Assembly: GCA_014860355.1 (NCBI GenBank)
Contig: JACZJV010000179.1
Span: 1-53,249 of the forward strand
DNA length: 53,249 bases
Source of the DNA: Burkholderiales bacterium
GTDB taxonomy: Bacteria > Pseudomonadota > Gammaproteobacteria > Burkholderiales > SG8-39
Direction: 5' to 3'
Below the pieces are notes generated by a model. It ran no database searches. It had not been told where the DNA came from and saw only the letters and a list, made by a program, of their open reading frames with translations. Below are positions 15,712 through 45,034 of the stretch, piece by piece. Numbering within the stretch: the stretch's first letter is position 1; each line of letters opens with the position of its first letter. The position numbers and the translations under genes are program-made.

Positions 15712-17676
15712 TCATCCGTGCGCGGACCCGGGCGCCGCAGACTGCCGTCGATGCAGCATTAGCACCAGCAGGACAATTCCCGCACCCACCGCAGTCGACA
15801 CCCATTCAGGGAAACCGATCAGCAAGCCGGCGACGAACAGGACGAGTCGCGCCCAAGTGCGCAGCCGCCCGAATCCCGTGAGAAAGCCCTCCGATGCGCC
15901 CGCGATGATGACGATCGCGATGATGTTAAACGTCACCCAAATCGCAGTCCTGTAAAGCGGCCCCTGCAGGATGAGCGCAGGCTCGAACAGGAAGAAGATT
16001 GGAATGAAATATATTACCACGCCGAGCCGCGCCGCAGTCACGCTGGTATGGATCGGATCCGAGCCGCTGATGCGCGACGCGAGGAAGGCCGCCAGCGCCA
16101 CCGGCGGGGTGATGGCAGCCAAGGTCGAGTAGTAGGCGATGAACAGATGCACTGCAAGGGTGTTCAGCCCCGCCGCCTGCTGGATCGCCGGGGCGAACGT
16201 GAGCGCCAGCATCAGGTAGGCCGCAACGATCATGCCGAGCATGCCGAAAATCATGCATACGGCGATGCCGATCGCGAGAATCGGAATCACGCTGCCGCCG
16301 CCCATCTGCACCAGCGCACCGGTAATCGACGGCGCGACGCCGGTCGCCATCAATCCGCCGAGGATGAAGCTCGTCGGCAGCAGCAGTGCCGTGGTCTCGG
16401 CGAGCAGTTTGCCGGTCTCGAACACGATGTCCTTCGCCCGTCGCCAGCTGATGCGCAGTTCCTTCTTAATGAACGTGAGCGCGATCAGCAGCCCGGACGC
16501 ATAGAACGGCGCGAGCCGCTCCCAACTCATGTACACCAAGCCCCACACCAGGAAGATCAGTACGGCCAGGAAGGGCCAGCCTTCGGTCAGCGCTTCTTTC
16601 ACGGACGGCAGCTGCTCTTGCGCCTTGCCAACCATTTTGTTTCGCGCGGCGTAGCCATCGACGTGGCAGTACAGCCCGAAATAGAACAGCAGGCTAGGGA
16701 TGATCGCGGCCTTCACGATCACCCCGTATTCCGTGCTGGTGAAATCAGCCATGATGAATGCGACCGCACCCATCACCGGAGGCATCAGCATCCCGCCGGT
16801 CGAGGCGCACGCCTCCAGCGCCGCCGCATAGTGCGCGGGGAAGCCGGCCCGCATCATGCTCGGGATGGTCACCGAGCCGGTGCTGACGACATTGCCGAAG
16901 ATACTTCCGCTCAGGCTGCCGAAGAAGCCGCTCGCGAGCACCGCGACTTTAGCCGGACCGCCGCGCGCCTTGCCCATTATCGCCATCGCAAGTTTGAGGA
17001 AGAAGTCCGCTGCGCCGGTGGCCACGAGCAGCGCCGCAAGGATCAAAAACCCGATGATGACTTCGCCCACCACCCGCGTGACTACACCGAGCAATGCATC
17101 GCTCGAGTACACATTGAAGGCGAGCGTGCGCGACAGCGTCGTCGGTGGCCCCCAGAACACCCCCGGCATGTACTGCGCGAACACCGGGTACAGCCCCAGC
17201 ACCAGCACGATGGCGAGGAAAATGTAGCCGCCGGAACGGCGCGCCGCCTCAAGAATCACGAAGAAGAGCATTGCGGCGACCACCAGCTGCCAGGTCTCCG
17301 TGACGGGGACCCAGGTCTCGTAGACTAGGGCGCGGGATTTGTACGCGAGGAATAGTGTAGTACCGAGCGCAATCAGCGCAGGGCCATAGCTCAGCCAGGT
17401 GGCGCCCTTTTCGTGCTTGTGCGCCGGCAGGAACAGCAAGGCGAGCGGCAGGTAGAACGCCATCAGCAAAAAGTAATAGGTGACGTCGAGCAAAGGCGCC
17501 ACGCCGAAGATATAGACAACCGCAAGAACCACTCCGGATGCCGACATGGCAAGCACTAGCGCGCGCATTGCCGCGGGCATGCCGGCGTAGCGCGTGGAAG
17601 CGCCGGAGACGTACTTCTCCGACAGCGTATCTACGATCTGCGGCTCGGGCGCCGTGGATCGGTTTGTGGCATTCAA
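15712..17676 (-). CDS. TAXI-type fused TRAP transporter permease (DctQM-like)
   Basis: About 654 residues with many hydrophobic segments: an N-terminal four-helix DctQ-like part (about 30-170), then a DctM-like part with GSLSGSIFGNVVSTGSVTIP and ASTGGMLMPPVMGAVAFIMA, the hallmark of TRAP large subunits. Such permeases use Na+ gradients to import small organic acids. The start is uncertain. I favour a TTG at 17674-17676 overlapping the TGA of the TAXI receptor (TTGA), but a downstream ATG at 17583 would still give the whole first helix. It is cotranscribed with the TAXI receptor at 17673-18932. Confidence 0.9.
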   Translation of the reverse strand: MNATNRSTAPEPQIVDTLSEKYVSGASTRYAGMPAAMRALVLAMSASGVVLAVVYIFGVAPLLDVTYYFLLMAFYLPLALLFLPAHKHEKGATWLSYGPALIALGTTLFLAYKSRALVYETWVPVTETWQLVVAAMLFFVILEAARRSGGYIFLAIVLVLGLYPVFAQYMPGVFWGPPTTLSRTLAFNVYSSDALLGVVTRVVGEVIIGFLILAALLVATGAADFFLKLAMAIMGKARGGPAKVAVLASGFFGSLSGSIFGNVVSTGSVTIPSMMRAGFPAHYAAALEACASTGGMLMPPVMGAVAFIMADFTSTEYGVIVKAAIIPSLLFYFGLYCHVDGYAARNKMVGKAQEQLPSVKEALTEGWPFLAVLIFLVWGLVYMSWERLAPFYASGLLIALTFIKKELRISWRRAKDIVFETGKLLAETTALLLPTSFILGGLMATGVAPSITGALVQMGGGSVIPILAIGIAVCMIFGMLGMIVAAYLMLALTFAPAIQQAAGLNTLAVHLFIAYYSTLAAITPPVALAAFLASRISGSDPIHTSVTAARLGVVIYFIPIFFLFEPALILQGPLYRTAIWVTFNIIAIVIIAGASEGFLTGFGRLRTWARLVLFVAGLLIGFPEWVSTAVGAGIVLLVLMLHRRQSAAPGSAHG

Positions 17677-18932
17677 TTGAGGGCCAGCACTTCCTCGGCG
17701 AAAGGCTTGCTGATACCGTTCGCCGGGCGGAATTCCGTCCAGAACGAGGCCCACTGCGCGTTGCTCGCTTCGATCGCGATGCCTTTCTTATCGGCCGCGG
17801 CCATGGCATCCCTGTAGGTCTTCTCGTATTTTTGCGCGAGCTGCACGAGCTGGTCCTGACGCTTTTGGTAGGAATCCTTCCATTTCCCTTTTTCCTTCAA
17901 GTACCGGATCGAGCCCTCGTGCAGCGGCTGCAGCGCCCCGGTGTCCAGGAAAAGTACCAGGTTGGCGATGCTCAGCATGTTGGCGTGGGTGAAGTCGCCC
18001 TTGTAGCTGGCATGGTTCTCATCGAGCCACTTGATGAGTTGGTAGACGAACTCGGGGTCTTCGTTCGCCCTCACGTGGTTGGCTTGGAAGGCGTGATCCA
18101 TGGGAACGCCGATGGCCGACTTGACGCCCGCGACGGTCTCCTGCGGAACGTAGCCGGCCATGAACTTCCGGTAGCGGTCGTAGGCCGCGGGGTCCTGCTG
18201 ACGCTGCGGCACCGCGAGCCAGCGCAGCCCCTTCGGCGTCGCCTCGGCTTTATACGAGGGCCCCGAAATCGGGGAGGTGAAGGTAACCTCGACCCTGCCC
18301 TCCGCCAGCACCGCCGTATTGGCGCCGTAGCTGCCGATGGACACCAGGTCGACGTCGTTGTGGCTGAGGTTGCGATAGGCGAGTAGCGCCTCGATCCCGG
18401 CGACGAGAAAGGAAGAACTCTTCGCCAGCGCAATCCGCGTTCCCTTGCCAATGTCGTTAATGGACTTGATCCTAGAGTCGCCTTGAACCGCGTAGCCCCA
18501 GGGCGTGACCATGTTCATGTGGATCAGGCGCGTGTCGGTCGGCCCGGCCGTTTTGGTCGCGTATCCCTGCACCGCGTCCATCTGGTCGAAATAATCCGAT
18601 GCCTGTACCATCGCCAATCGCCCCTCGCCGCTATTGAGCCACGCGGCGCGAGCAAATCCGTTCGGGGCCGGAAGCACGGCGACCTTCACCCCGGTCGCAG
18701 CCTGGAACTTCGACGACCACGCGACGGCCAGCGAGTGGTTCGCCGTGCCGACCACCGGCGTCACGACATTGAAGGTTTTCGGCCACTGGTACTTACCCGA
18801 CTGCGCAAGCGCGCGCGGGCTCATACCTGCGACAAGCAAACCGCTCCCCAGCGCCGCGGCGACCATAAAACGCAGACTCTCGCGCTTTTTGAAATTGAAC
18901 TCTTCGTCGCGCCTTTCGAAAATGGAATTCAT
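17673..18932 (-). CDS. TAXI-family TRAP solute-binding receptor
   Basis: 419 residues from the ATG at 18930-18932, which has a strong GGAGG ribosome site. After a charged N-terminus (about 22 residues) comes a signal segment (MVAAALGSGLLVAGMSPRALA) and a binding domain with PVVGTANHSLAVAWSSKFQA, GRLAMVQASDYFDQMDAVQG and IGKGTRIALAKSSSF. It binds its ligand in the periplasm and hands it to the fused permease encoded just downstream. A 15-base element shared with the AcnX/IclR promoter lies 64 bases upstream, so it probably belongs to the IclR regulon. The ligand is unknown; a hydroxy- or keto-acid processed by AcnX is a reasonable guess. Confidence 0.88.
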   Translation of the reverse strand: MNSIFERRDEEFNFKKRESLRFMVAAALGSGLLVAGMSPRALAQSGKYQWPKTFNVVTPVVGTANHSLAVAWSSKFQAATGVKVAVLPAPNGFARAAWLNSGEGRLAMVQASDYFDQMDAVQGYATKTAGPTDTRLIHMNMVTPWGYAVQGDSRIKSINDIGKGTRIALAKSSSFLVAGIEALLAYRNLSHNDVDLVSIGSYGANTAVLAEGRVEVTFTSPISGPSYKAEATPKGLRWLAVPQRQQDPAAYDRYRKFMAGYVPQETVAGVKSAIGVPMDHAFQANHVRANEDPEFVYQLIKWLDENHASYKGDFTHANMLSIANLVLFLDTGALQPLHEGSIRYLKEKGKWKDSYQKRQDQLVQLAQKYEKTYRDAMAAADKKGIAIEASNAQWASFWTEFRPANGISKPFAEEVLALN

Positions 18933-18995
18933 ATGCCGCTCCTCCTTCCGGTGGTGTAGCCGTGCACCCGAGCTAAATTCGGTGGGCAAGGGTCC

Positions 18996-19010
18996 TTGAA
19001 ACAATATTTC
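18996..19010. promoter_or_regulatory. Putative IclR operator upstream of the TRAP-TAXI operon
   Basis: TTGAAACAATATTTC matches TTGAAACAGTATTTC at 28118-28132 in 14 of 15 bases. Each contains the dyad GAAA-N5-TTTC. It sits 64 bases before the TAXI start. The rest of the 326-base gap 18933-19258 shows nothing else I can name. Confidence 0.6.
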
Positions 19011-19258: not shown

Positions 19259-20695
19259 TCAAAAATAAGGCACCGTCCATTCCAGGTCCTTGGGCACAAT
19301 CGCCTGCTCGACCGACCGGGCCGCCGCATAGCCCGCAATTTCCCCCGTTTGCGTGCACCACGGAAAATTTCTCATCACCATGAATATCGTTTCGAAGGCA
19401 AAAGACAGGGACGCGCCCGTGAGCAATAGATTGTCGATCTTCTTGGGCAGGAAGCATCGGTAAGGGACCTCGAAGGTATAGGGTCTATAGGCGTCCCAGA
19501 AGAACGTCTTCGTCATCGGCTTCGTGACCGCATCCGGGAATCTGCGACCGGCTCGCGCATCCTCTATCGAAAATACATACTCTCCGATCGGATGGCGACC
19601 GTCGCGTATTCCGACATAACGGCCAACGTTGGTAACAAAAGCATGCTCAAACCCGGGAACATATTTTTTCAGGAATCTCGTCTCGGCGTCTATGAGTCCC
19701 CGCATCGCCTTCTTTGCGCGCGCGTGGTCTTCGGCGTCGTCGTCCATGTGCAGCCCCCATTCATACGGGACGTTTTGCCACAATACAAATGTTCCGGGAC
19801 CCTGGATCGGACTCATGTCCAGGGTGGGATGGCCAATATAGGCATTGCCATAAACACCCGCTCCCTCCAGCCTCGGTCGGTAGAGCTCGGGAGGAATGTC
19901 CCCGGCGCCCCTCGCAGCAGCGATGAGTTTGGCCAGCGTGGGATCGTTCTCGCCTGTCTGGTAAGCCAGCACGCGCGCGAAGTCGATCCCGCTCATGATC
20001 CACAGCTGTGCGCCGGGAATGGGTCGGTTCTGTGCGTCCCAGGCAACACTAGCATGCTGCGGCCCGCCGCCTCGCACAAAGGGGGCGCCAGCTCGCGCCA
20101 CAACTTCCGCGGTTCCCGACCCGTCGATAAAAACCTTGCCCCTGATCGCCTGCCGGCCGGACGCATTCTCAACGATCACTTCCGTAATCGAGTCCCTTCC
20201 CGCATGGCTTTTCACTACCACATCCACGAATGCGCTGCCGTATTGCGCCCTCACCCCGGCCTCCTCCAGCATGCGCACCATGATGCATCCGGCCGCCTCT
20301 GGGTTGAACGAGCTCCTCGAGAAAGCGCTGCCGGGTTTAAGGTGCGCCTCATAGTGCGACAGGGGATTCCCCGCCCAGCCCGAAAGTGTGTCTTGCGTTG
20401 CCGTATAGATGCACCCTTCATCAGCGAACCTTTGCATCAGTTCCGTATGAATTCCGCCGACCCCCGGCCCGGCTGCGCCCTGCAATCCGCACGTATGTAC
20501 CCCTCCAGGCATGTCGTACTTTTCCAGGAGGATCGTGCTGGCGCCCATTCGAGCCGCGCGCAACGCGGCCGCAAAACCTCCAGGCCCGCCCCCGACCACG
20601 ACGACATCGGCCTCAGCCACCACCGGGATGGGTTTGCGTTCCGACTCAACCTCGACTATTTGTACATCCAAGCCCTGCGCAAATCCCTTAGCCAT
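19259..20695 (-). CDS. FAD-dependent oxidoreductase (FAD_oxidored family)
   Basis: 478 residues from the ATG at 20693-20695. The longer open frame upstream has no ribosome site. The N-terminus shows a dinucleotide-binding fold, ADVVVVGGGPGGFAAALRAA (about residues 28-47), followed by LLEKYDMPGGVHTCGLQGA, characteristic of the PF12831-type FAD proteins. C-terminal motifs IDNLLLTGASLSFAFETIFM and GEIAGYAA close the FAD site. It likely oxidises or reduces a small organic acid in the cytoplasm; the substrate is unknown. It is upstream of the TRAP-TAXI genes on the same strand but separated by 326 bases. A paralogue of the same family lies at 29135-30601. Confidence 0.85.
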   Translation of the reverse strand: MAKGFAQGLDVQIVEVESERKPIPVVAEADVVVVGGGPGGFAAALRAARMGASTILLEKYDMPGGVHTCGLQGAAGPGVGGIHTELMQRFADEGCIYTATQDTLSGWAGNPLSHYEAHLKPGSAFSRSSFNPEAAGCIMVRMLEEAGVRAQYGSAFVDVVVKSHAGRDSITEVIVENASGRQAIRGKVFIDGSGTAEVVARAGAPFVRGGGPQHASVAWDAQNRPIPGAQLWIMSGIDFARVLAYQTGENDPTLAKLIAAARGAGDIPPELYRPRLEGAGVYGNAYIGHPTLDMSPIQGPGTFVLWQNVPYEWGLHMDDDAEDHARAKKAMRGLIDAETRFLKKYVPGFEHAFVTNVGRYVGIRDGRHPIGEYVFSIEDARAGRRFPDAVTKPMTKTFFWDAYRPYTFEVPYRCFLPKKIDNLLLTGASLSFAFETIFMVMRNFPWCTQTGEIAGYAAARSVEQAIVPKDLEWTVPYF

Positions 20696-21114: not shown

Positions 21115-23118
21115 CTAACTCCTCGGTTTCGGACCTGCTCGCTTCAGCGCAGCGCCCGCTCGATGCGCCGAATGTTGCGCGCCGCTCGCCTGCAGCGGCG
21201 CCACCGGGCCGAGTATGGGTTCAAAATCCTGGCGCATCTTACGCGCTTCCCCAACGCGTTGGGTGATCCCGAGCGAATCAAACAATTCCAGGATCTGAAT
21301 CGCGAGCTTTCTGGCGATGGCGCTCGCATCGCGAAACTGCGCAGCGGTGAACATTCCTCCCGGGCTCGAACGCGCCAGCTCAGCGGCGGTGGCGGCGAGC
21401 CTTGCCAGGGTCGCCCTGGGATAAAAGCGGTAATCGCTGACGCGCATCACCTCGCCGGTCCTGCTCTTGCGGTGAAGAAAGTCCTTCAGGAGATCCTCGC
21501 TCAGACCCAGATTTGCGGCGAGTTCGGCGGTTTGTGGCGGCACGTAGTCAGCACGCAGCATGGCCGGCAACACCAATCGCCAGATCTTTTCGTCCATGGC
21601 ATTGGCCGTCGCGTTATGCCCGGGTAGCCGCAGGATCGAGCCAGCGATTTCGAGTTTGCGCGCGTCGACCAGTTCGTGCAGTAGAGGCAAGAACGCTTCC
21701 GGCTTGAGATAGGGTGCGAGTTCGATTCGGAGCGCTTCTACCTTCAATCCCGGAGCCTGCGGGTCCGCCCGGTGGAATTCGGCGAGTCGAGCAAGGATTT
21801 GTTGGCGCAGTGCTGCGGCGCTGGTGCGCGCTATTGCCACGCGCTGCTCGCGGCCCAGCACCTCGACATCGGCCGATCGGTAGAGCGAAGCCGCGCGCTC
21901 GGCGGTGAGGTTGAATGTGGTTTCGAAGCGCGCCAGATCGACGCTTTGATGCGGGATCTTCAGCAGTTCGGCTAAAGCCGCCAGTGGTGTGCTCTGTTCG
22001 AGAGCCGCAAGTGTGGCCAGCCGTTCCGGGGTGGCGCGACGCGTCGCCGGAGCGAAAGGATCGAGCACCACGCCCCCACCCAAGGTACGTCCTGCGGACT
22101 GGTCGCGCAGAATGAATCGGTCGCCGTGGATGGCGGAGACCGGACTATCGAGCACGAGTTGCATCCGCATTGACTCTCCCGGCGCGACCGCCACAGCCCG
22201 AAGGGTGGCCACCCGCGCCAATACGTCGGCTGTCGCCAGATGCAGGTGGACTGGCGTCCAGTGCGCCAGCGGCTGTTGCTCCTGGGCGAGCAGGGTGAAG
22301 TTGGCCTCCAAGCGCCGGCTCGGCGCGTGGATCGCATGGTGCAGCACCCAGTCGCCGCGCGCAACGGCACCGACATCGATGCCGGAAAGATTGAGCGCGC
22401 AGCGCTCCCCAGCGCCGGCACAGTTCGAATCGACGCCGCGAATCTGCATGCCGCGCACTCGAACCGGCACGCCCGTAGGCGAAACCACGAGCCGATCGCC
22501 GGGCTTTACCTCGCCGTTGAACACCGTGCCGGTCACTACCGTGCCGCTGCCCACCACGGTGAACGCGCGGTCGATCGCGAAGCGAAAGTGCTGTCCTTCG
22601 CGCAGCCGTGCCCGCATCCCATGGGCCGCGGCAAGCAGCGCCTGCCGCAGGTCGTCGATGCCTCTGCCGCTGACCGCGGACACCGGCAACAGCGGCACAC
22701 CGGCAAGCGCGGTCTCGGCGACCAAAGCCCGGACTTCTGCTGCCACCTTGGCGACTTGCTCGGGCGCCGCGCGGTCAGTCTTGGTAATGACTGCGATGCC
22801 CTGACGGATATCCAGCAGGTCGAGGATACGCAAGTGCTCTACGGTTTGCGGCATCACACCGTCATCGGCCGCAACCACCAGCAGGGCGAAATCGATGCCG
22901 CATACGCCGGCAAGCATGTTGCGTATGAATCGCTCATGTCCGGGAACATCCACGAACCCGATCAGCGCACCGTCGGCAAGAGGCAAGTAGGCAAAACCCA
23001 GGTCGATCGAGATGCCGCGCGCTTTCTCCTCCGGCAGACGGTCGGTATCCACGCCCGTCAGCGCCTTTACGAGCAGCGTCTTGCCGTGATCTATGTGACC
23101 TGCGGTAGCGACGATCAT
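21115..23118 (-). CDS. selB: Selenocysteine-specific elongation factor SelB
   Basis: 667 residues. The N-terminal GTPase has all G motifs: [22 protein letters not shown] and TKTD. EF-Tu-like domains II and III follow, then a long C-terminal extension of winged-helix repeats (about residues 380-640) that binds the SECIS hairpin in the mRNA. Length is normal for bacterial SelB. Its ATG overlaps the stop of a selA remnant (ATGA at 23115-23118). It delivers Sec-tRNA (selC, 20941) to UGA codons with a SECIS, for which the gene at 24444-26093 is a visible client. Confidence 0.97.
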
Positions 23119-23410: not shown

Positions 23411-24340
23411 CTAAACCTCCTGTTTCATTTCCTGCAACAGCCGTTGCGCGGCAATCGCGGCGCCGGCCCCGTCGCTCACGGCGGCTGCCACCCGGCGCGG
23501 TGATCCACGCCTGATATCGCCCGCGGCAATGATTCCGGAAACTTCGGTCTCAAACTGCTCGTTCGCCACGACATAATCCAGATCGTCCAGCGCAAGCACG
23601 GTCCGCAGATAATTACTCGCCGGCGCAAAACCCACGCGAGCCAAAACCCCTTCCACCGCGAGCAACTCCTTGCGGCCGCTGGCGGCGTTCACGACCTGCA
23701 GGCCGGTGACAAACTTCTCGCCGACGATTTCCACGGCCTTTTCCCCGCAACGGATCTCAATCTTCGGTTGCGCGCGCGCGCGCGCCCGCAACGCTGGCTT
23801 GGCGCTCAACTCGGCTTCTGCTTCGATGACCAGCACCTTAGCCGCGTAATTCGCCACCAATAGCGCCTCGATAATGCCCGCATCGCCTCCGCCGCAGACT
23901 GCCACTACTTGATTCGAAAACAGGCTAGCGTCGCACAAGGCGCAATGAATCATGCCTTTCCCTTGAAATTCTTCCTCCCCGGGCACCGCCAGCTTCTTCG
24001 GTATCAACCCGCCAGCCAGGATCAGCACCGAACACGTATAGGCTTTGCCGTCGGCGCAAACAACCGATTTGCAGGCGGAGTAGCATTCAATGTCGACGAC
24101 CTCCCGCTGCTCCATTCGCACGCCTGCGCTCGCCGCTGCGTCGACCATCTCTGAGGCCAGCGTGGCGCCTGCTATCCGCTCCCCGGTGCCCGGATAGTCT
24201 ACGACCCATTCCAGGTTCATCATCTGGCCGCCAAAGGATTCCTTGTCCAACAGCAAGGCGCGAAATCCCGCTTGTGCCAGATGCCTGCCTGCCGTCAGTC
24301 CGGCCGGCCCACCGCCAACGATGATTGCATCGTAATCCAA
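23411..24340 (-). CDS. Thioredoxin-reductase-like FAD/NAD(P)H flavoprotein
   Basis: About 309 residues. I place the start at a TTG (24338-24340) because AAGGAGG lies seven bases before it; the earlier in-frame TTG at 24346 is too close to that site. Motifs: DAIIVGGGPAGLTAGRHLAQ for FAD, a redox CxxC in HCALCDASLF (TrxB-type CATC position), VVAVCGGGDAGIIEALLVAN for NAD(P)H, and AGDIRRGSPRRVAAAVSDGA near the end. This is the low-molecular-weight TrxR fold. It lies 103 bases downstream of the UGSC selenoprotein on the same strand. I infer that it reduces the selenoprotein's selenenylsulfide or disulfide, directly or through a thioredoxin. Confidence 0.88.
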   Translation of the reverse strand: MDYDAIIVGGGPAGLTAGRHLAQAGFRALLLDKESFGGQMMNLEWVVDYPGTGERIAGATLASEMVDAAASAGVRMEQREVVDIECYSACKSVVCADGKAYTCSVLILAGGLIPKKLAVPGEEEFQGKGMIHCALCDASLFSNQVVAVCGGGDAGIIEALLVANYAAKVLVIEAEAELSAKPALRARARAQPKIEIRCGEKAVEIVGEKFVTGLQVVNAASGRKELLAVEGVLARVGFAPASNYLRTVLALDDLDYVVANEQFETEVSGIIAAGDIRRGSPRRVAAAVSDGAGAAIAAQRLLQEMKQEV

Positions 24341-24443: not shown

Positions 24444-26093
24444 CTATTGCCATTTGTCGAAGAGTACCGGGGTAGGCCGCGCCAATTGCCAAGCCTGGGT
24501 AAACGTGTTGGTCTCTCCGCCCACGACCACGATTCTTACCGAACCGACAGGAAAAACCGGCAGCAATTCGTCGGGGCGAAGCTCAAGGAAACTGGCCGGC
24601 CATTGCGCCCTCTTCCCGTACCACTCTTTTCCCTTGAGGACCGGCTCGATGAACCAAGAATAGAACGGATCAGCCTGGAAGTCTGCTAGGGTTCTTGTCG
24701 CGCGCGACCAGACATACTCCTCGGCTGCCTGTTTGGTATAGCCTTGCGCTGCGATTTTCCTAGCCGACATCGGATCCATGAGCAGCAGACAACCGTTGGG
24801 CAATTCATAGTTGGCGATCGTCCGGGCAATTGAGTCGAGACCGCGTAGCGCGTCGTGCTCGACCTTACCGAAGGGCGAGTTATGACTCCATCCTCCGGTC
24901 AATACGGTTACGACGTTCTGCTCTGCGCCAAATCCCAGGGAAACGTGATACGGCTCCCACGGACTCTTGGCTTCGTTTTCGGCGAAGGCAAAGCTGTACT
25001 TGCTCGGATTGCCCATGCTGCTCATATCGTTGATGCTGCTCCTGGAGCCGCCCAGGCAGATGAGCGCCAGCCTCAGGAAACGCCCTATGGTCGCGTTGGC
25101 TTTGTTCCCGGTACCGGAACCGAGCGCATTGACGCCGGCATTCATTCCGATCTTCTTCGCCCCCGGACCGTTCACCACGATGGCAAACGAAAACGAGGTG
25201 GTGGAGCGAACGGTGGACGAAAACCATTCGTTGTCGAAGGCTTCTATGATGCCCAAGAGCAGCGGCATATACCTGGATTCGCATCCGGCCATCACCGCGA
25301 CCGTTGCCACCTGTTCAACCGTTACCGTCATGCTCTCCGGCAGCATATTCGTGGTCACGATCTCCTCGGCCGGATGGCGCGTTCCCTTCAACATCTGCGC
25401 AACCGCCTTCTGCGTCGGAGGAATGAGCGGCAGTCCATCGGACCAGCCGCGCTTGTAGAAGAACTGGTTCACCTCGTCCAATGTGCCCTTGAATGCGATT
25501 CTCGCGGCGGTCTCCATCTTCTTCGCCGGGGGAGATCGCTCCTCCTCGCTCAAGGGCGAGGTCAAAGCGGCGACGAATTGCGGCATAAAGACCGGCAGCT
25601 GTTCATCGCTCACGTCCCCGCAGGGGTGAGGCACGACAACCCGGCGAAGCCGCGACATTCCTTCCTTGTCGCAGGTTATCTGCGTATCGGCTTCGAACGG
25701 CGCGTCAACGATGAACACGCCCGGTATGCCTTTTTTTTCCAGCTCCATGGTCCAGTGGGAACCCCACATGGTGCAGGAGCCTCAGGCACCGCAGCCGTAA
25801 ATGACGGCGTGCCCCTTGCTGACTATTTCGTCCCACAATTCCGGGTCGTCCGACATGTACGGGGTGCTCTTGTGCACAAACACCGTCTTCACTCCCGGCG
25901 CATAGTGGGGCAAAAGGTCCGCGATCTTCTTCAGAAAGACGTCTGCGCCGCCGACAATCTGGCTTACGCAATAGATGACCTTGCCGCTGAGGTCCGGAAT
26001 CCGTTCTGCCATGGGCGCAGATGCCACCTCGTGCTCCGTTCCACACGGATTCAGTACGGTGAATGTCGCTTCTTTGTCCGATTGACTGTTCAT
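24444..26093 (-). CDS. UGSC-family selenoprotein with in-frame UGA (Sec104), fused to an unknown C-terminal domain
   Basis: 549 residues if the TGA at 25782-25784 is read as selenocysteine; otherwise the frame splits into 103 and 441 codons. The ATG at 26091-26093 has an AGGAACG ribosome site. The join reads Y-G-C-G-A-U-G-S-C: Cys101, Sec104 and Cys107, the UGSC signature, flanked by conserved-looking sequence on both sides (VIYGCGA before, TMWGSHWTMELEKKGIP after). A SECIS hairpin follows the UGA directly. Residues 20-170 form the UGSC domain. Residues 194-549 are a separate domain I do not recognise (KRGWSDGLPLIPPTQKAV, GGSRSSINDMSSMG). No signal peptide, so it is cytoplasmic. A thioredoxin-reductase-like gene, selB and selC are neighbours. 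The redox role is likely, the substrate unknown. Confidence 0.92.
25752..25784 (-). promoter_or_regulatory. SECIS element with its UGA selenocysteine codon
   Basis: On the minus strand the UGA is 25784-25782. Ten bases later CCA (25771-25769) pairs with UGG (25754-25752), with a bulged U (25768). GUGGG (25767-25763) pairs with CCCAC (25759-25755), and the loop is GUU (25762-25760). Counting U of UGA as 1, the bulged U is 17 and the loop G and U are 23 and 24, the same offsets as the E. coli fdhF SECIS as I know it. An outer pairing of GGCUCC after the UGA with GGAGCU (25747-25742) may extend the stem. SelB is encoded nearby. Confidence 0.9.
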
Positions 26094-26363: not shown

Positions 26364-26777
26364 CTACTTCTTGGTGACTTCGACGATACCTTGATCCGCG
26401 TCTACGCGGACCCAGTCGCCGGTCTCGATGACTTGCAGCGGATCCTGGTCGAAATCCGTCATGGCAGGCGCGTGCGTTACTACCGCGCCCAGTGCGATCT
26501 TGGTCGTCATTTCGTTGAATAGCATCGCGGCGGGCGCTACGCCGGAGAGGCGGGCAACGTGAAACTGACTCGACCAGCCGGACGACCCCTTTGCACCCGG
26601 AAACACCAGCACCCTGCCTTTGAAGCTCCTGCCGCGCAGTTCGTGCCGGGTCTCGATGATTGTTCCGGTCCTGGGGTCGATTCCGCCCCAGCCTGAGATT
26701 CTGTCGGTGGTAACTAGCGCCTCGCCTTCGGCCGCGCCGCCCACTACTTTCCTGCCGTGCAGCACGATCTTGGTCAT
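26364..26777 (-). CDS. Aconitase X small subunit (swivel domain, DUF126)
   Basis: 137 residues from the ATG at 26775-26777, overlapping the TGA of the large-subunit gene (ATGA). Motifs GEALVTTDRISGWGGIDPRTG and GRVLVFPGAKGSSGWSS fit the AcnX swivel domain, which carries the active-site serine loop. It forms a heterodimer with the product of 26774-28060. Known AcnX enzymes dehydrate cis-3-hydroxy-L-proline or mevalonate 5-phosphate; which reaction applies here is not determined. The residue HAPAMTDFDQDPLQVIETGD region closes the swivel fold. Confidence 0.88.
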   Translation of the reverse strand: MTKIVLHGRKVVGGAAEGEALVTTDRISGWGGIDPRTGTIIETRHELRGRSFKGRVLVFPGAKGSSGWSSQFHVARLSGVAPAAMLFNEMTTKIALGAVVTHAPAMTDFDQDPLQVIETGDWVRVDADQGIVEVTKK

Positions 26778-28060
26778 GCGAGGCGCCCCGACCAGCGCCC
26801 GGTGATCGCCGCCTGTATGCAGTCGGCGGTTGTGCCGAACCAGGCCTGCACGCCCATGATGGCTGGCAGGTAATGCGCCTGCTTGGCCGAGTCCACCGCG
26901 GCGACCTGCACGCCCTTGGGCATCACCCGGCCGAAGGCCGAACAGGTATCGGTCATCAGGTGTCCGCCGGCATCGGTAATGATTTTGGTATAGCCGTTTC
27001 GGTCCGCGATTTGCTTGATTGTGCTCGGCGTGAAAATCCACAGGCTGGTGTCGGCGTGTATGCGCTGGCCTTCGAGCAGTTGGCATACTTCCCAGATCTG
27101 CTCGATCGAGTAATGCGGACAGCCGAGCATGACGTAGTCAACGTGCGCATCCCGTCCGGTCGAGTTGACCTGTTCGTAAGCCCGCTTTCGCTCCGCAGGA
27201 CCGTATCTGAACGTCGCCAGCGGCTTGCCCGCGCCGAAGGCCTCCTTCATGTTGCGAGCCTCCGGGGTCACGCCGATCACGTGGTACATCTCCACCCCGC
27301 CCGAGGAAGAAGCGGCCGCGCCGAAATGCTTGAGCCGCGCCAGGTTGGGCACGTTCCTGACGCCGTTGATCACAGGAATCCGCTCCTGCACCATCTCGCC
27401 CACGTAATAGCCTAGCAGCCCCCAGTCTGCGGTGTCCTTGACTTCGAGTTCAAGCTCGATCAGGTGGGTGCCGAGACGGTTCTCATCCAGGTGGTACCCC
27501 CAGTAGGGGATCTTGCCGGTGAGCATCGCAGCGCCGGCGCTCTCGCGCCCCTCCGCATTGGTGCGCCCACCGAGCACGGAATTGCAGTAGATGACGGCGG
27601 AAGATTCCATCCAGGCGCAATGCTCGCCTTTCACGGGCACGTTGCCCACCTGGTACGGGGTGCAGGTATTGAGCAGTTGGACTCCCAGGCCACCGAGATA
27701 GGTTTCGCCCATGCGGTAGATCTTCACCAGTTCAGCGGAAACACCCTGCAACTGCGCATTCAGCGGGTCTATGCCCTGCTGCAGATGCGAGGTATAGACC
27801 TTTACCTTGGGAATTTTCACCACGTCGGCGCAATCCAGACTGAATTCCGAGAACACCGCATCCATCCCGCCCGCATGCTGAGCGGCAAAGTCGCGTACGA
27901 AAGGTGTGGTCGCGCCCACCGTCGCGCAGACATTGTTCGTGTCCACCAGCCGTTCGGCGTCGAGCGCTTCGCCGTAGCGAACCAGCAGGTCCATGGCTTT
28001 TTGCACTGCCGGGCCGTGCTCGCCGTCTAGCATGCGCCGTTCGTCGTCAGCCAGTCTCAC
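26774..28060 (-). CDS. Aconitase X large (catalytic) subunit (DUF521)
   Basis: 428 residues from a GTG at 28058-28060. The family features include an N-terminal LADDERRMLDGEHGPAVQKA, the Cys-bearing segments LLNTCTPYQ (Cys133), MLGCPHYS (Cys314) and TDTCSAFG (Cys373), which are placed to ligate an Fe-S cluster, and the substrate loop GGRTNAEG. AcnX proteins are dehydratases in the cytoplasm. The two-subunit arrangement is the usual bacterial one. No proline-catabolism gene is nearby, so a hydroxyproline role is not supported by context. Transcription is divergent from the IclR regulator, with a shared operator candidate between them. Confidence 0.92.
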   Translation of the reverse strand: MRLADDERRMLDGEHGPAVQKAMDLLVRYGEALDAERLVDTNNVCATVGATTPFVRDFAAQHAGGMDAVFSEFSLDCADVVKIPKVKVYTSHLQQGIDPLNAQLQGVSAELVKIYRMGETYLGGLGVQLLNTCTPYQVGNVPVKGEHCAWMESSAVIYCNSVLGGRTNAEGRESAGAAMLTGKIPYWGYHLDENRLGTHLIELELEVKDTADWGLLGYYVGEMVQERIPVINGVRNVPNLARLKHFGAAASSSGGVEMYHVIGVTPEARNMKEAFGAGKPLATFRYGPAERKRAYEQVNSTGRDAHVDYVMLGCPHYSIEQIWEVCQLLEGQRIHADTSLWIFTPSTIKQIADRNGYTKIITDAGGHLMTDTCSAFGRVMPKGVQVAAVDSAKQAHYLPAIMGVQAWFGTTADCIQAAITGRWSGRLA

Positions 28061-28191: not shown

Positions 28192-29073
28192 ATGCCCACA
28201 GGCAGTGAAAAAGCTAGGCGTTCCGACGGACAACGGCCGGACCAGGTGTCTGCGCTCGTGCGCGGCATCGAAGTGCTGCGCTGTTTCCAGGCAGGAGCGC
28301 GCGCGCTGAGCAACGGCGAGATTGCGCGACGCACCGGAATTCCGAAGCCGACCGTGACGCGGCTAGCGGCCACGCTGGTGTCGCTCGGCTACCTGAAGCA
28401 GATGCCTGATACCGACAAGTATGCCATGAGCGCCGGCGTGCTCTCGCTCGCCCAGGCTTTTCTGTCCGGGCTTGACGTGCGCGCCAGTGCCCGGCCCCAT
28501 ATGCTCGAACTCGCCGAGTCGGTGGACGCGGCGGTCTACCTCGCGGCGCGCGACGGACTCAACATGGTCCTGATTGAAGCCTGCCGCTCGCAGTCGACTA
28601 TGATCCATTCGCGCGTCGGCGTCGGGTCGCAGCTTGATCTGGTCACCGCGGCCGCTGGCCGCGCGTACCTGAGCGCGCTGGGAACCGCGGAGCGCGATAC
28701 GCTGATCGCGCAAATGCGCAAGGCGCACGGAGCGCGCTGGAGCCGCTATTCGGCGGGTCTGGAGCGCGCGCTCAGGGATGCTGCTGCACGCGGCTACGCC
28801 ATGTCGGCCGGCGAGTGGCATCCCGACATCAATACTGTAGCGGTTGCGCTGCATCCTGCGGAAGGCGAATTGCTGGCGCTCACCTGTGGCGGCCCCGCGT
28901 TTGCGTTTCCTGCGAATTACCTGCGCAAATCGATCGCACCGCGCCTGCTCGAAACGGCGATTGCGATCGCGCGCGAAATCGGCGGCGGCGTTCCGGTGGA
29001 GGCGCCGGCGCGCACACCGATGCGGCGCGCAGCCGGTAGGACACCGACAGCAAGGGACAATGCGGGGCCTTGA
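28192..29073 (+). CDS. IclR-family transcriptional regulator
   Basis: 293 residues from the ATG at 28192 with GGAG at 28181. The N-terminal winged helix has LSNGEIARRTGIPKPTVTRL followed by YLKQMPDTDKYAMS, typical of IclR proteins. The C-terminal effector domain includes DAAVYLAARDGLNMVLIEAC and GYAMSAGEWHPDINTVAVAL. It is divergent from the acnX pair and followed, 61 bases later, by an FAD oxidoreductase. Regulation of acnX and the TRAP-TAXI operon is suggested by the shared 15-base element. The inducer is probably the imported substrate or an intermediate. Confidence 0.94.
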   Translation: MPTGSEKARRSDGQRPDQVSALVRGIEVLRCFQAGARALSNGEIARRTGIPKPTVTRLAATLVSLGYLKQMPDTDKYAMSAGVLSLAQAFLSGLDVRASARPHMLELAESVDAAVYLAARDGLNMVLIEACRSQSTMIHSRVGVGSQLDLVTAAAGRAYLSALGTAERDTLIAQMRKAHGARWSRYSAGLERALRDAAARGYAMSAGEWHPDINTVAVALHPAEGELLALTCGGPAFAFPANYLRKSIAPRLLETAIAIAREIGGGVPVEAPARTPMRRAAGRTPTARDNAGP

Positions 29074-29134: not shown

Positions 29135-30601
29135 ATGTCGACCTACAAATCCACTGAGCGCGGCGACGAGCGGATCCTCGCCTCCGACATTTTCGAGGGC
29201 GAACGCACGCGCGGCGCGCGCGCGCAACTCGGCACCTGGCGCGAGGAGGCGCGCGATATTCCGGTGTTCCGACAGTGCGACGTGCTCGTCGTCGGCGGCG
29301 GGCCTTCGGGGACTGCGGCCGCGGTCGCCGCTGCTCGCGTCGGCGCGGATGTCGTTTTGCTCGAGCGCTACAACCATCTCGGCGGCCTGTCCACCGGCGG
29401 GCTGGTCATCTGGATCGATCGGATGACGGATTGGGAAGGCCGCCACGTGATCCGCGGATTCGCCGAAGAGTTGCTCGACCGGCTTCCGCGCGACGCGGTT
29501 GCCGGCCCCGCCCGGCGCGAATGGGGTTCGCGCGATCCCGGGCGGGCTGCGCACTGGTCGCAGCGTACCGCCGCCTATCACGGCGTCGTCACCTGGTCTC
29601 CGACGGTGGATCCGGAACGCCTCAAGCTCGCCTCTCAGGACATGGTGGTGGGGGAAAAGGTGCACCTCGTATTCCACTGCTGGGCGGCGTCGCCGCTCCT
29701 GGAAGGCGGCGCGGTGCGCGGCGCGATTTTCGAGAGCAAGGCCGGCCGGCAGGCGCTGCGGGCAAAGGTGGTGGTGGACGCGACCGGTGACGGTGATCTG
29801 TTTGCCCGTGCCGGCGCTTCCTTCGAATCCAACGTCGAGAAGGACGACATTCACCACTGCATGAACACCGCCTGGCTGTTCGGCGGAGTCGATATGGAGC
29901 GCTGGATCGAATTCAAGGCCGGACTACCCGACGAATTCGCGGCATTCATGGCGCGCGGGCGCGAAACGCTGCGCCTGTTCGAGCGCCCGTTCGTTTCCTG
30001 GAGAAACGACGTTGCGTTGTTTATGGGACCGCGACAATCGGGCTTCTCCCCGCTCGATCCGGACGACCAGACCGAAGTCGAGATTCGTTCACACCAGTTG
30101 ATGGCCGGGCACCTCGATTTTTACCGCGCCCACGCCCCGGGATTCGAAAACGCGTTTCTGATGCTGAGCGCGCCCCAGCTTGGGGTGCGGCATGCGCGGC
30201 GATTGGTCGGCGTGCGCAAGATTACGCGCGCGCAGTGGCCGACCGGTGCGGTGTTCGATGACGAAATAGGCATCACGCCTGCGGTATCGCCGAAGTTCCC
30301 CAATATCTCGATCCCCTACGGCGCCCTGGTACCGGAAACGCTCGATGGATTGATCGCCTGTGGCCGCCATATCGCCTGCGATCCGAACTCGCATGGATTC
30401 ATGCGCGAAATTCCGCAATGTTGGATCACCGGGCAGGCGGCCGGGGTCGCGGCCGCGCTTGCAGCGCGCGACGGCGTCGAACCCCGCTCTGTAAACACCG
30501 GCGTACTGCAATCCATTCTGGTTAAGCAGGGCGCGCATCTGCGTCCAGACGCGCAGACTGTGGCCGAGCCACAGAACACAATTTCGGCTCCCGCGGTTTG
30601 A
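29135..30601 (+). CDS. FAD-dependent oxidoreductase (FAD_oxidored family)
   Basis: 488 residues. After an N-terminal arm of about 45 residues, a Rossmann motif reads CDVLVVGGGPSGTAAAVAAA and is followed by LLERYNHLGGLSTGGLVIWI. Further motifs are VDATGDGDLFARAGA and GLIACGRHIACDPNSHGFMR with GQAAGVAAALA at the end. It is the same family as the enzyme at 19259-20695, though the two differ greatly in sequence. It is probably cotranscribed with iclR and may act on an AcnX product. The substrate is unknown. The two FAD enzymes bracket the selenium and AcnX genes. Confidence 0.87.
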   Translation: MSTYKSTERGDERILASDIFEGERTRGARAQLGTWREEARDIPVFRQCDVLVVGGGPSGTAAAVAAARVGADVVLLERYNHLGGLSTGGLVIWIDRMTDWEGRHVIRGFAEELLDRLPRDAVAGPARREWGSRDPGRAAHWSQRTAAYHGVVTWSPTVDPERLKLASQDMVVGEKVHLVFHCWAASPLLEGGAVRGAIFESKAGRQALRAKVVVDATGDGDLFARAGASFESNVEKDDIHHCMNTAWLFGGVDMERWIEFKAGLPDEFAAFMARGRETLRLFERPFVSWRNDVALFMGPRQSGFSPLDPDDQTEVEIRSHQLMAGHLDFYRAHAPGFENAFLMLSAPQLGVRHARRLVGVRKITRAQWPTGAVFDDEIGITPAVSPKFPNISIPYGALVPETLDGLIACGRHIACDPNSHGFMREIPQCWITGQAAGVAAALAARDGVEPRSVNTGVLQSILVKQGAHLRPDAQTVAEPQNTISAPAV

Positions 30602-41727: not shown

Positions 41728-43179
41728 TCACCTCACCAGGAATATGGAACGTTCGCGCGCGACAATGGCGGCATCGTCGGCCGCCGCCACCTCGAACTCG
41801 ATTTTATGCGACCCGGCCGGCAGCCTTCCTTTGTCCACGCGCAGCCGCACCGGCACCATGCGCGTGGCCGCGCCGTCTATGTCGACCGCGTCCGCGCCCA
41901 CCAGCTGCAGCGTCTGCGCGCCGCTGGCGCGGATGACAAATCGGTGCGGCGCTTCCTGCGTGTTCATGATCTGCAGCTGGTAGATGTTCTCCACCCAGCG
42001 TCCGTCGACCTCGCGCGACAGGCTCGCCCGGTCGCGGATCACGTCGACCTTCAGCGGCACGCGCATGTAAAGGGTGACGCCGATCGCAACGATCACGGTC
42101 CACAGGATCGCGGTATAGACGAGCACGCGCGGCCGCAGCGAGCGCGCCAGGATCTGGCGCGGGCTCAGTTTCTGCCGCAACGCGTTCTCGGTGGTGTAGC
42201 GGATCAGCCCCTTCGGCAGCCCCATTCTCGCCATCACCTTATTGCAGCCGTCGATGCAGGCGGCGCAGCCTATGCACTCGTACTGCAGGCCGTCGCGGAT
42301 GTCGATGCCCGTGGGACAGACCTGAACGCAGACGCCGCAGTCGACGCAATGCCCCAGCCCCAGCGACTTCGCGTCGGCGTTGCGCGCGCGCGGACCGCGC
42401 GGCTCGCCGCGCTCCGGATCGTAGGTGATGATGAGCGTGTCCGGGTCGAACATCGCGCTCTGGAAGCGCGCATAGGGGCACATGTACTTGCACACCTGCT
42501 CGCGCATCCAGCCGGCATTGCCGTAGGTGGCAAAACCGTAAAACAGGACCCAGAAGATTTCCCAGGCGCCCAGCGCGGGGGCTGCGCCCGCTGCCGCCGG
42601 CGCAAACACGGCCGCGACTTCGGCGCCGAGCTGGTGTATCGGCGTGAAATAGCCGACGAAGGTGAACCCGGTCCACAGCGATAGCGCGATCCACAGTCCG
42701 TGTTTTGCCGACTTGAGCCCGAATTTGCGCGCAGACATGGCCTGCATATCGAGGCGCATGCGCGCCGAGCGGTCGCCTTCGATCTTGCGCTCGATCCACA
42801 TGAAGATTTCGGTATACACCGTTTGCGGGCAGGCGTAGCCGCACCACAGCCGCCCGGCCACGGCGGTAAACAAAAACAGCGACAGCGCCGAAATCACCAG
42901 GAGGCCGGTGAGATAGATGAAGTCCTGCGGCCAGAAGACGATGCCGAAAATGTAGAACTTGCGCGCCACCAGGTCGAACAGCACCGCCTGGCGCCCGTTC
43001 CAGATCAGCCAGGGGCCGCCGTAGTACACAAGTTGCGTGAAAATCACCAGCGCCCAGCGCCAGCGCGCGAACCAGCCGCTCACCGCGCGCGAGTAGATTT
43101 CCTTGCGGACTTCGTAAAGCGGTTGCTCGAGCGCCTCCCCGGCTTGGGCCAGGTCCGCAGGTCTGGGACTGTCATTCAC
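41728..43179 (-). CDS. ccoG: Cytochrome c oxidase accessory protein CcoG (polyferredoxin)
   Basis: 483 residues from a GTG at 43177-43179. Several membrane segments (for example WALVIFTQLVYYGGPWLIW and a loop with LWCGYACPQTVYTEIFMWIE) surround a double [4Fe-4S] ferredoxin domain, CVDCGVCVQVCPTGIDIRDG then CIGCAACIDGCNKVM. A C-terminal immunoglobulin-like domain lies outside. CcoG reduces copper for cbb3 oxidase assembly. It follows ccoP after 114 bases. Confidence 0.95.
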   Translation of the reverse strand: MNDSPRPADLAQAGEALEQPLYEVRKEIYSRAVSGWFARWRWALVIFTQLVYYGGPWLIWNGRQAVLFDLVARKFYIFGIVFWPQDFIYLTGLLVISALSLFLFTAVAGRLWCGYACPQTVYTEIFMWIERKIEGDRSARMRLDMQAMSARKFGLKSAKHGLWIALSLWTGFTFVGYFTPIHQLGAEVAAVFAPAAAGAAPALGAWEIFWVLFYGFATYGNAGWMREQVCKYMCPYARFQSAMFDPDTLIITYDPERGEPRGPRARNADAKSLGLGHCVDCGVCVQVCPTGIDIRDGLQYECIGCAACIDGCNKVMARMGLPKGLIRYTTENALRQKLSPRQILARSLRPRVLVYTAILWTVIVAIGVTLYMRVPLKVDVIRDRASLSREVDGRWVENIYQLQIMNTQEAPHRFVIRASGAQTLQLVGADAVDIDGAATRMVPVRLRVDKGRLPAGSHKIEFEVAAADDAAIVARERSIFLVR

Positions 43180-43293
43180 CGATGCCCTGCCTCAGAGAAC
43201 TGCAGACTGCATGCACCCCGCTCCGATACGGGGGCGACCAGCGCGGGATTCACGTCCGCCCGATGGCGCGAACTGCCGGCAGTTGCACAGCGC

Positions 43294-44232
43294 TCACTTC
43301 GCGCCTGGCTTCGCCGCGGCCGCGGCCGCGCCCGGCGAGTTTGACAGACTCCACACGTAAGCGGCGAGTATGTGCACCCTGGCTTCTCCCAGCAGATCCT
43401 TCTGCGCCGGCATGACGCTCGTGCGGCCCTTGCTGATGGTTTCCATGAGCGCGGGTTCGTCTGCGCCGTGCAGCAGATTCGTCTTGGTCAGGTTCGCCGC
43501 GCCGATGGCCGTATTGCCCTTGCCTTCGGGGCCGTGACAGGCAACGCAGATGGTCATGAATTTTTCCTTGCCGCGCGCCGCGCGCAGCGAATCGAAGGTC
43601 ATGCCGTTGAGCGACATCACGTAGTGGGCCACGTCTTTCACGCCGTCATCGCCCAGCATCGCGCCCCAGGGCGGCATCACGCCCTTGCGCCCGTCCATAA
43701 TGGACGCCTTGATGGTTTCCGGCTCGCCGCCGTAGATCCAGTCGCGGTCGGTCAGGTTCGGATAGCCCTTGCCGCCGCGCGCGTCCGAGGAATGGCATTG
43801 CGCGCAATTGTTCAGGAACAGCTTCTGCCCGATTGCGAGCGCATCGGGGTCGGTCGCCAGCTGCTTCAGGTCGATTTTCGAGTACTTTTCATAGATAGGC
43901 GCCGATTGCGCCTCCGCCAGCGCCACCTCGTCCTCGTATTGCTTTATCGATGTCCACTGATACGAGCCGCTGAATGTACCCAGACCGGGATACAGGACGA
44001 GATAGGCGAGGCCGAACAATATGGTTATGTAGAACAGCCAGATCCACCAGCGCGGCAGCGGGTTGTTCAATTCGACCAGATCCTCGTCCCATGAATGCCC
44101 CGTCGTCTCCGCCTGCGCGCCGGACACCTTGCGCGTGCTCATCGCCTGCAGCAGCACGGCGCAGGCGATGATGCTCGCAATCGTAATGATGCTGATATAG
44201 AAGCTCCAGAAACCGCCGGTGAAATCGCTCAT
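43294..44232 (-). CDS. ccoP: cbb3-type cytochrome c oxidase diheme subunit III
   Basis: 312 residues from the ATG at 44230-44232 with GGAGAACGG upstream. Two membrane segments at about 11-31 and 62-82 precede two c-type heme motifs, Cys143-A-Q-C146-H147 and Cys229-V-A-C232-H233. It passes electrons to the binuclear centre of CcoN. The start ATG overlaps the stop of ccoQ (ATGA). A proline/alanine-rich C-terminus ends the protein. Confidence 0.96.
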   Translation of the reverse strand: MSDFTGGFWSFYISIITIASIIACAVLLQAMSTRKVSGAQAETTGHSWDEDLVELNNPLPRWWIWLFYITILFGLAYLVLYPGLGTFSGSYQWTSIKQYEDEVALAEAQSAPIYEKYSKIDLKQLATDPDALAIGQKLFLNNCAQCHSSDARGGKGYPNLTDRDWIYGGEPETIKASIMDGRKGVMPPWGAMLGDDGVKDVAHYVMSLNGMTFDSLRAARGKEKFMTICVACHGPEGKGNTAIGAANLTKTNLLHGADEPALMETISKGRTSVMPAQKDLLGEARVHILAAYVWSLSNSPGAAAAAAKPGAK

Positions 44233-44402
44233 TTCCGTTCTCCGTATCCGATTCCGTCTTCGCCTTCGTCTTCGTCGAAGGGCAGGCGCGCGGCCTGATC
44301 GAAGCCGGCTTTGCTGCGGTCGCTGTATGCCCACAGGACTATGGCTATGAATGCCGCAAACGCGACCACCGTGACTATCGAGCGCACTGTGTTGATGTCC
44401 AT
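44229..44402 (-). CDS. ccoQ: cbb3-type cytochrome c oxidase small subunit
   Basis: 57 residues, easily missed because of its size. It starts MDINTVRSIVTVVAFAAFIA with one transmembrane helix (about 8-25), and ends in an acidic tail (PFDEDEGEDGIGYGERK). The position between ccoO and ccoP, the length and the helix-plus-acidic-tail shape fit CcoQ, which stabilises the complex. It overlaps ccoP by four bases and follows ccoO after two bases. Confidence 0.9.
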   Translation of the reverse strand: MDINTVRSIVTVVAFAAFIAIVLWAYSDRSKAGFDQAARLPFDEDEGEDGIGYGERK

Positions 44403-44404
44403 GG

Positions 44405-45019
44405 CTACCTCACTGCCTTGAGCGCGGTGCCAAGCACCTGCAGATAGGCGACCAGCGCGTCCTGCTCGGTCTTGCCGGCAAGCTGCTTGCGCGCGCCGGC
44501 TATGTCTGCGTCGCTGTAGGGCACGCCGACGCTGCGCATCGCGCGCATCCTGGTCTCGATGTCAGCGCTAGCTGCCGCGGTTTTCGCCAGCCACGGATAG
44601 CCCGGCATGTTCGATTCCGGCACCAGGTCGCGCGGGTTGTTCAGGTGGGTGCGGTGCCAGTCGTCGCTGTATTTGCCGCCGACGCGCTGCAGGTCCGGTC
44701 CGGTGCGCTTGCTGCCCCACTGGAACGGATGGTCGTAGACGAACTCCCCCGCGACCGAGTAGTGGCCGTAGCGCTCGGTCTCGGCGCGAAACGGCCGGAT
44801 CATCTGCGAATGGCAGTTGTAGCAGCCTTCGCGCAGGTAGATGTCGCGCCCGAGCAGCTGCACCGGCGTGTAGGGCTTCAATCCGGCTACCGGCGTCGTC
44901 GTCGATTTCTGGAAGTACAGGGGCACGATTTCCACCAGGCCGCCGACCGCCACCACCAGGATGATCAGGACGATCATCAGGGCGTTGTTTTTCTCGATCA
45001 TTTCGTGACTGAAATTCAT
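44405..45019 (-). CDS. ccoO: cbb3-type cytochrome c oxidase monoheme subunit II
   Basis: 204 residues. An N-terminal transmembrane anchor ([20 protein letters not shown]) is followed by a heme motif Cys66-Y-N-C69-H70 and the conserved [21 protein letters not shown] Met axial ligand region lies in SNMPGYPWL. It carries electrons from CcoP to CcoN in the membrane. It sits 15 bases after ccoN. Confidence 0.97.
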
Positions 45020-45034
45020 GGCATTTTTCTCCGT

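Follow-up and report, generated by a model that had tools for sequence, protein, structure and literature searches.

In the aquatic samples of the GOS survey, UGSC ranks as one of the major selenoprotein families. Both the family and its fusion with a domain called 'Unknown_1' have been in print since that survey appeared in 2008 (PMC2398784). In 2016, a survey covering over 5200 organisms recorded 33 UGSC selenoproteins, found in 26 of them (PMC5029168, Table 3), and a 2026 review places UGSC among the families with largely uncharacterised functions (PMC13188914). Here we describe a UGSC gene within a 53,249-nucleotide stretch of DNA (the window) from a Burkholderiales bacterium (contig JACZJV010000179.1 of assembly GCA_014860355.1, genome G000 in our set). 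Judged from its sequence, the encoded protein is a diverged new member of this known family, and its branch in the UGSC tree is long (1.17).

Sec decoding of the UGSC gene

The gene, for which an earlier note on this DNA had given no strand, lies on the minus strand, and AAGGA precedes its start ATG at position 26093 (Table 1). Translation of this strand with TGA read as selenocysteine (Sec, U) yields a 549-residue frame with a single recoded codon, U104, in the context YGCGA-U-GSCTMW. The protein comprises a UGSC domain (residues 12–174), a second domain that we call U1 (about residues 203–474) and a C-terminal tail. The Pfam model PF24696 matches the joined protein across the UGA codon, with 93.9 bits over residues 12–174 and a cut-off of 25, and the separate halves score 28.3 and 35.0 bits, each above the same cut-off. 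This profile search, which the earlier note had proposed, upholds its reading of both sides of the TGA as one UGSC-family selenoprotein. Its description of the TGA as in frame likewise stands, although the downstream stretch runs for 445 codons to the stop rather than the 441 that it had counted, a figure that holds only from the first ATG. PF24696 is the only Pfam family matched, and the only NCBIfam match is the NCBI equivalog NF041046, at 75.9 bits against a cut-off of 125. The window protein is thus a UGSC member by Pfam and not by the NCBI equivalog model.

Table 1. Features of the window discussed in the text, with positions counted from its first nucleotide
Feature	Positions	Strand	Basis or remark
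selC, tRNA-Sec, tca anticodon	20941–21035	+	ARAGORN; RF01852, 79.6 bits
selB, Sec-specific elongation factor	21115–23118	−	TIGR00475, 433.5 bits, cut-off 242.25
TrxB-like flavoenzyme, HCALCDA motif, proposed electron donor	23411–24340	−	TIGR01292, E 3.8e-77, 259.1 bits, below cut-off 343.45
UGSC–U1 fusion selenoprotein, 549 aa, Sec104	24444–26093	−	translation with TGA as U, Pfam, models
U1 partner domain, 275-position model	24672–25487	−	domain profile; residues about 203–474 match no Pfam family at E 0.001
bSECIS-like hairpin directly after UGA, three-base apical loop starting with G	25741–25781	−	folding tests
Codon of the invariant Cys107	25773–25775	−	aligned homologues
UGA codon, Sec104	25782–25784	−	translation, aligned homologues
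Aconitase X pair: small subunit 26364–26777, large subunit 26774–28033	26364–28033	−	upstream of UGSC–U1; possible pathway partner
IclR-type regulator, beyond the aconitase X pair	28258–29073	+	opposite strand to the UGSC gene

Homologues were sought with PF24696 in 299 genomes of the phylum and in 60 relatives, of which 4 and 19, respectively, were positive, each count including the window's own genome. The matched places of both searches, together with four further loci, gave 105 domains collected by an iterated HMM. Two rows were set aside: L008, because it and L109 are one contig of G304, a member of the window's genus, and L010, in which the site is not covered. This left 103 distinct rows. 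In these, the window included, the codon at position 104 is TGA in 96 and TGC in 7, and nothing else occurs, which is the exchange of Sec for Cys that the earlier note had named as proof of the site. Sec and Cys are accordingly the only residues in this column of the aligned rows, and the Cys at +3 is invariant. The 96 TGA rows are spread over 19 genomes plus a single Chloroflexi MAG, and the seven Cys rows over seven genomes, four of which also carry Sec copies. A tree of 101 rows, 95 with Sec and 6 with Cys, shows at least two changes between these labels.

Among all 105 rows, with the duplicate counted, the motif reads UGSC in 73, UGGC and UGTC in six each, CSTC and UGAC in five each, USTC and CGSC in three each, UGRC in two and UGNC in one, and is not covered in one. 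The column at −3, which holds Cys101 in the window, is mostly M, I, V, L, S or N across the same rows and is not conserved. Of the signature Cys101-x2-Sec104-x2-Cys107 put forward earlier, only Sec104-x2-Cys107 therefore remains, and Cys101 was rejected as a signature residue. The UGSC match of genome G277 falls into two pieces with a TGA outside the site, and this copy may be decayed.

These sequence comparisons confirm the window gene as a genuine Sec-decoded UGSC selenoprotein, one protein and not two. Gene callers that treat TGA as a stop split such genes, and the active site is lost.

The hairpin directly after the UGA codon has a predicted free energy of −22.6 kcal/mol, with z of −2.18 against dinucleotide shuffles, −2.81 against synonymous codons and −2.2 in a local test of nucleotides 12–35. 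When this local test was applied to all genes against synonymous-codon nulls, Sec genes had a mean z of −2.13, with 68 of 96 at p ≤ 0.05, and Cys genes a mean z of −0.96, with 2 of 7 at p ≤ 0.05; the interval was picked after hairpins had been seen in a 54-nucleotide test from the UGA, in which the Sec genes (mean z −0.56, n = 96) were not distinguishable from the Cys genes (−0.67, n = 7). For the serine at +7, which lies in the loop, 46 of 48 Sec genes use AGT, whereas the background over all serines of the UGSC and U1 domains is 212 of 2442; the p-value of 1e-48 overstates independence because the rows are paralogues. Together, these data support a bSECIS-like hairpin that is favoured at synonymous sites. 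The local hairpin is weak (z above −0.5) in 12 of the 96 Sec genes. Four of these, two at L091 and one each at L110 and L111, belong to loci with a TrxB-like/selB cassette of the window type, and these loci may carry the Sec signal in another register.

Both selB and selC lie within 5 kb of the window gene, as the earlier note had it. The window genome holds selA on contig C40, selB in the window and two selC genes (79.6 and 79.8 bits). The second selC accompanies a SelB-like frame at C40:43194–50283 (L118 in part), an island in which selA, selB, a TrxB-like flavoenzyme, selC, CaiB, U1 and UGSC all lie on one strand. Across the 19 genomes with Sec-type UGSC, most of them in many contigs, SelA is present in 17 and missing in G321 (73% complete) and G325, and a tRNA-Sec of at least 60 bits is present in 14 and missing in G304, G311, G318, G321 and G332. 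Only matches of at least 60 bits were counted as tRNA-Sec; all 14 control genomes gave matches at E 0.001, and matches of about 37–55 bits were taken for other long tRNAs. Three genomes have only Cys forms, and one of these (G335) carries SelA and selC while G143 and G277 carry neither. Among six UGSC-negative genomes, G309 and G320 have both and four have neither. The link between UGSC and the Sec machinery is therefore strong but not perfect, given these gaps and the UGSC-negative genomes that hold both components.

A near-constant partner domain and a variable neighbourhood

Fusion of U1 to UGSC was scored for 59 of the 105 domains (the duplicate counted). Among the 104 distinct domains, 100 have U1 either fused or at most 600 nucleotides away on the same strand. 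Three of the four exceptions, L077, the second domain of L091 and L110, lie at contig ends, and the fourth, L059, has a U1 3.7 kb upstream. Among 60 fused frames, 54 contain exactly one TGA, at the UxxC site, and four Cys forms contain none. The remaining two are the L101 entry, which spans two adjacent UGSC genes with three TGA codons, and L092 (3305–4975, minus strand), a Cys-type fusion whose one in-frame TGA lies away from the UGSC site and could reflect error, decay or other recoding.

When the U1 profile was run on 21 genomes, it was present in all seven that were UGSC-positive and in none of the 14 that were UGSC-negative, in numbers nearly equal to those of UGSC (36 in G316, 20 in G338, 8 in G343, 3 in G139, 2 each in G000 and G335, and 1 in G143). 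Cys is the leading residue in none of the U1 columns conserved at 85%. D219, R338, N346 and E372 are nearly invariant, with the window itself having Cys at 346, and this pattern would suit a role in substrate binding. The distribution supports U1 as a near-constant, apparently obligate, partner of the UGSC domain, a relationship that we did not find stated in the literature searched.

On the minus strand of the window, the aconitase X pair is followed by UGSC–U1, the TrxB-like flavoenzyme and selB, with selC on the plus strand. A gene of the flavoenzyme cluster occurs within 4.5 kb in 20 of 95 UGSC loci with called genes, on the UGSC strand in 12 of the 20. The motif C-x2-C-D is present in 18 of these, and the genes at L079 and L105 are other enzymes, so that 77 of the 95 loci have no TrxB-like CxxCD gene within this distance. 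SelB lies within 4.5 kb in 9 of the 95 loci. A TrxB-like gene next to SelB, together with UGSC, is found in the window and at L091, L108, L110, L111 and L118; the literature searched yielded no description of a TrxB-like/selB/selC cassette with UGSC.

To place these neighbours against background, 46 UGSC loci were compared with 20 control stretches, both drawn from G316 and G338. TctC-like binding proteins occur at 38 of 46 loci versus 7 of 20 controls (Fisher p 3e-4), at densities of 19.4 versus 6.3 per 100 kb, in genomes where TctC genes are abundant. Other families differ little between loci and controls: TrxB-like (4/46 versus 0/20), SelB (1/46 versus 0/20), SDR (4/46 versus 1/20), ECH (8/46 versus 2/20), CaiB (3/46 versus 1/20), MmgE (3/46 versus 2/20) and ACAD (5/46 versus 2/20). 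Over all UGSC loci, CaiB, enoyl-CoA hydratase and MmgE/PrpD lie near 10, 10 and 7, respectively, and no aconitase X cluster appears among the neighbour families of at least three genes.

The window also carries a TRAP transporter of the DctM plus NMT1-like type (15712–19004, minus strand) and FAD-dependent oxidoreductases at 19259–20695 (minus) and 29135–30601 (plus), which may belong to the same catabolic region as UGSC. By eye, the genes at 41728–46462 on the minus strand look like an operon for a cbb3 cytochrome oxidase and would point to a host living under microaerobic conditions.

Many diverged copies in related genomes

Genome G316, from the family of the window genome, gave 34 UGSC matches. 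After three short matches without the site were dropped, 31 UGSC genes remained (L031–L057), all of them Sec forms, with pairwise domain identities of at most 74.1% and a median of 26.5%. In G338, from the window's order, 19 UGSC genes (L058–L076) are likewise all Sec forms, with identities of at most 63.3%. The stated contamination is 2% for each genome, and the low identity between copies speaks against a strain mixture.

The 31 Sec genes of G316 alone nearly equal the total of the 2016 survey (PMC5029168, Table 3), and the largest whole bacterial selenoproteomes number 57 and 63 genes in the 2026 review (PMC13188914). The literature searched contained no report of a 31-copy Sec-UGSC genome, of Burkholderiales selenoproteins with UGA-decoded selenocysteine, or of paralogous selenoproteins in conjunction with glycine reductase, PrdB or GrdB.

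Predicted fold and remote kinship

AlphaFold2 models have a pLDDT of 88.5 for the UGSC–U1 fusion and 95.2 for the UGSC domain alone. The domain is predicted to be alpha/beta, with Sec104 following a strand and lying just before a helix, and with Cys107 in the first turn of that helix. Among the 50 Foldseek matches listed of 1592 for this domain, the best are flavodoxin-like and weak (best E 5.8e-4), with TM scores to the query of 0.27–0.51; the same 50 also include GTPases and other alpha/beta proteins, and no thioredoxin. The models therefore suggest a flavodoxin-like alpha/beta fold for the UGSC domain rather than a thioredoxin-like one, and a thioredoxin fold was rejected on the AlphaFold2 models and the Foldseek matches. 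The fusion model gave no convincing Foldseek match (best E 4.4e-4, TM 0.18), and sequence searches of the PDB gave nothing clear. A flavodoxin-like model of UGSC was not found in the literature searched.

A profile of 102 UGSC domains was compared with one of 11 PrdB-like PF07355 proteins from genomes of the phylum, two of which have TGA at the site. The comparison returned a probability of 92.6% (E 4.7e-7) over 71 columns, in which the Sec columns of the two profiles are aligned with each other. As controls, the reversed alignment reached 0.2 and the highest of 50 column shuffles reached 5.6. Furthermore, when 23 neighbour-family alignments were run against UGSC, c20, which is UGSC itself, scored 99.1 and the other 22 scored at most 14.7. 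Subsets of the PrdB-like rows scored 24.1 (the two TGA rows), 92.1 (nine Cys rows) and 75.9 (the first four Cys rows). Three of the 11 proteins were scanned, and their best match is TIGR04483 PrdB (5e-32 to 6e-24, under its cut-off).

When the 102 UGSC members were compared with family profiles, PF07355 did not appear among the 25 families listed, and PF09338, a PrdA/GrdE-type subunit family, is touched weakly by 6 of the 102 (best E 0.019). PF09338 was found in 0 of 100 genomes of the order, in a search that gave no match in any control either. On the profile evidence, UGSC looks remotely homologous to PrdB/GrdB of the proline and glycine reductases. This kinship is not stated in the available passages on UGSC and on Grd or proline reductase in the literature searched.

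PrdB-like proteins with an in-frame TGA at the catalytic site occur in another order (L128:730–1950 and L129:739–1983, both minus strand), and at L129 a SelA-like frame, recognised by eye, adjoins the PrdB-like gene.

Proposed function and its alternatives

Beyond Sec decoding, the U1 partner and the cassette, which computation supports, we infer a substrate, a chemistry and a donor. On the reading that we hold most likely, and to which we give an even chance, UGSC–U1 would reduce a small organic substrate through its selenol, as a two-part enzyme recycled by the TrxB-like flavoenzyme. U1 would bind the substrate, which the Sec104 selenolate would attack as in the Sec-bearing subunits of D-proline reductase and glycine reductase. 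Cys107 would then release the product with formation of a Sec–Cys selenenylsulfide, and the CALC flavoenzyme encoded next door, or thioredoxin, would reduce this bond again. The various UGSC paralogues would act on different substrates, with imported carboxylates making up many of them.

A broader form of this proposal, which we hold tentatively and with somewhat less assurance, makes UGSC–U1 a third branch of the PrdB/GrdB superfamily. It would be a modular Sec substrate reductase with its own U1 subunit and a TrxB-like donor, present in one Burkholderiales genome as 31 diverged catabolic Sec copies of different specificities, and with parts of the Sec machinery in its own cassette.

The usual interpretation of a UxxC motif is a general thiol or selenol redox protein, such as a disulfide, peroxide or methionine-sulfoxide reductase, for which U1 would serve as a scaffold. 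The motif itself and the adjoining TrxB-like gene agree with such a protein. However, the domain is modelled as alpha/beta, with flavodoxin-like proteins as the best Foldseek matches and no thioredoxin among the 50 listed of 1592, and the 31 diverged paralogues, together with the excess of solute-binding genes over controls, fit substrate diversity better than a housekeeping role; we consider this reading unlikely. Less probable still is a lyase, isomerase or hydratase that works in pathways like that of the aconitase X pair and carries out no net redox reaction, with Sec104 serving as nucleophile or metal ligand. The position of the aconitase X genes upstream on the same strand would accord with it, as would the presence, close to some UGSC loci, of CaiB, enoyl-CoA hydratase and MmgE/PrpD genes, and the near-invariance of D219, R338 and E372 in U1. 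Yet the +3 Cys never varies and seven rows have Cys in place of Sec, as in redox pairs, and the CaiB, ECH and MmgE genes occur at much the same frequency as in controls.

Finally, the TGA could be a true stop or a sequence error, leaving two proteins or a broken gene, as the default genetic code taken alone would have it. Against this, TGA stands at the same codon in 96 of the 103 distinct domains, a single profile is matched by both halves, and Sec machinery adjoins the gene. A chance or erroneous TGA was rejected on the profile match, the Sec/Cys-only column and the apparent selection on the hairpin, and its probability is close to nil. If the PrdB/GrdB link, the U1 partner and the TrxB-like donor of the preferred reductase reading are true, UGSC gains an enzymatic hypothesis that can be tested, and Burkholderiales would include a group rich in selenoproteins.

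Relation to known systems

The window protein shares with described UGSC selenoproteins (PF24696, NF041046) the Sec-containing UGSC motif and a PF24696 score above the cut-off, but the residue preceding its Sec is A, whereas 55 of the 105 rows carry D there. Its domain layout matches that described for the UGSC/Unknown_1 fusion in the GOS survey (PMC2398784), and U1 may be the same domain as Unknown_1. With thioredoxin-like UxxC selenoproteins it has in common the UxxC pair and a TrxB-like gene nearby, and it differs from them in its UGSC model and the flavodoxin-like alpha/beta folds returned by Foldseek. PrdB and GrdB (PF07355, TIGR04483) resemble UGSC in placing a UxxC Sec/Cys site after a beta strand, followed by a conserved E and G-I-x-T/G-V. 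They differ in that no direct HMM match to the UGSC protein was seen, and in that the partner of UGSC is U1.
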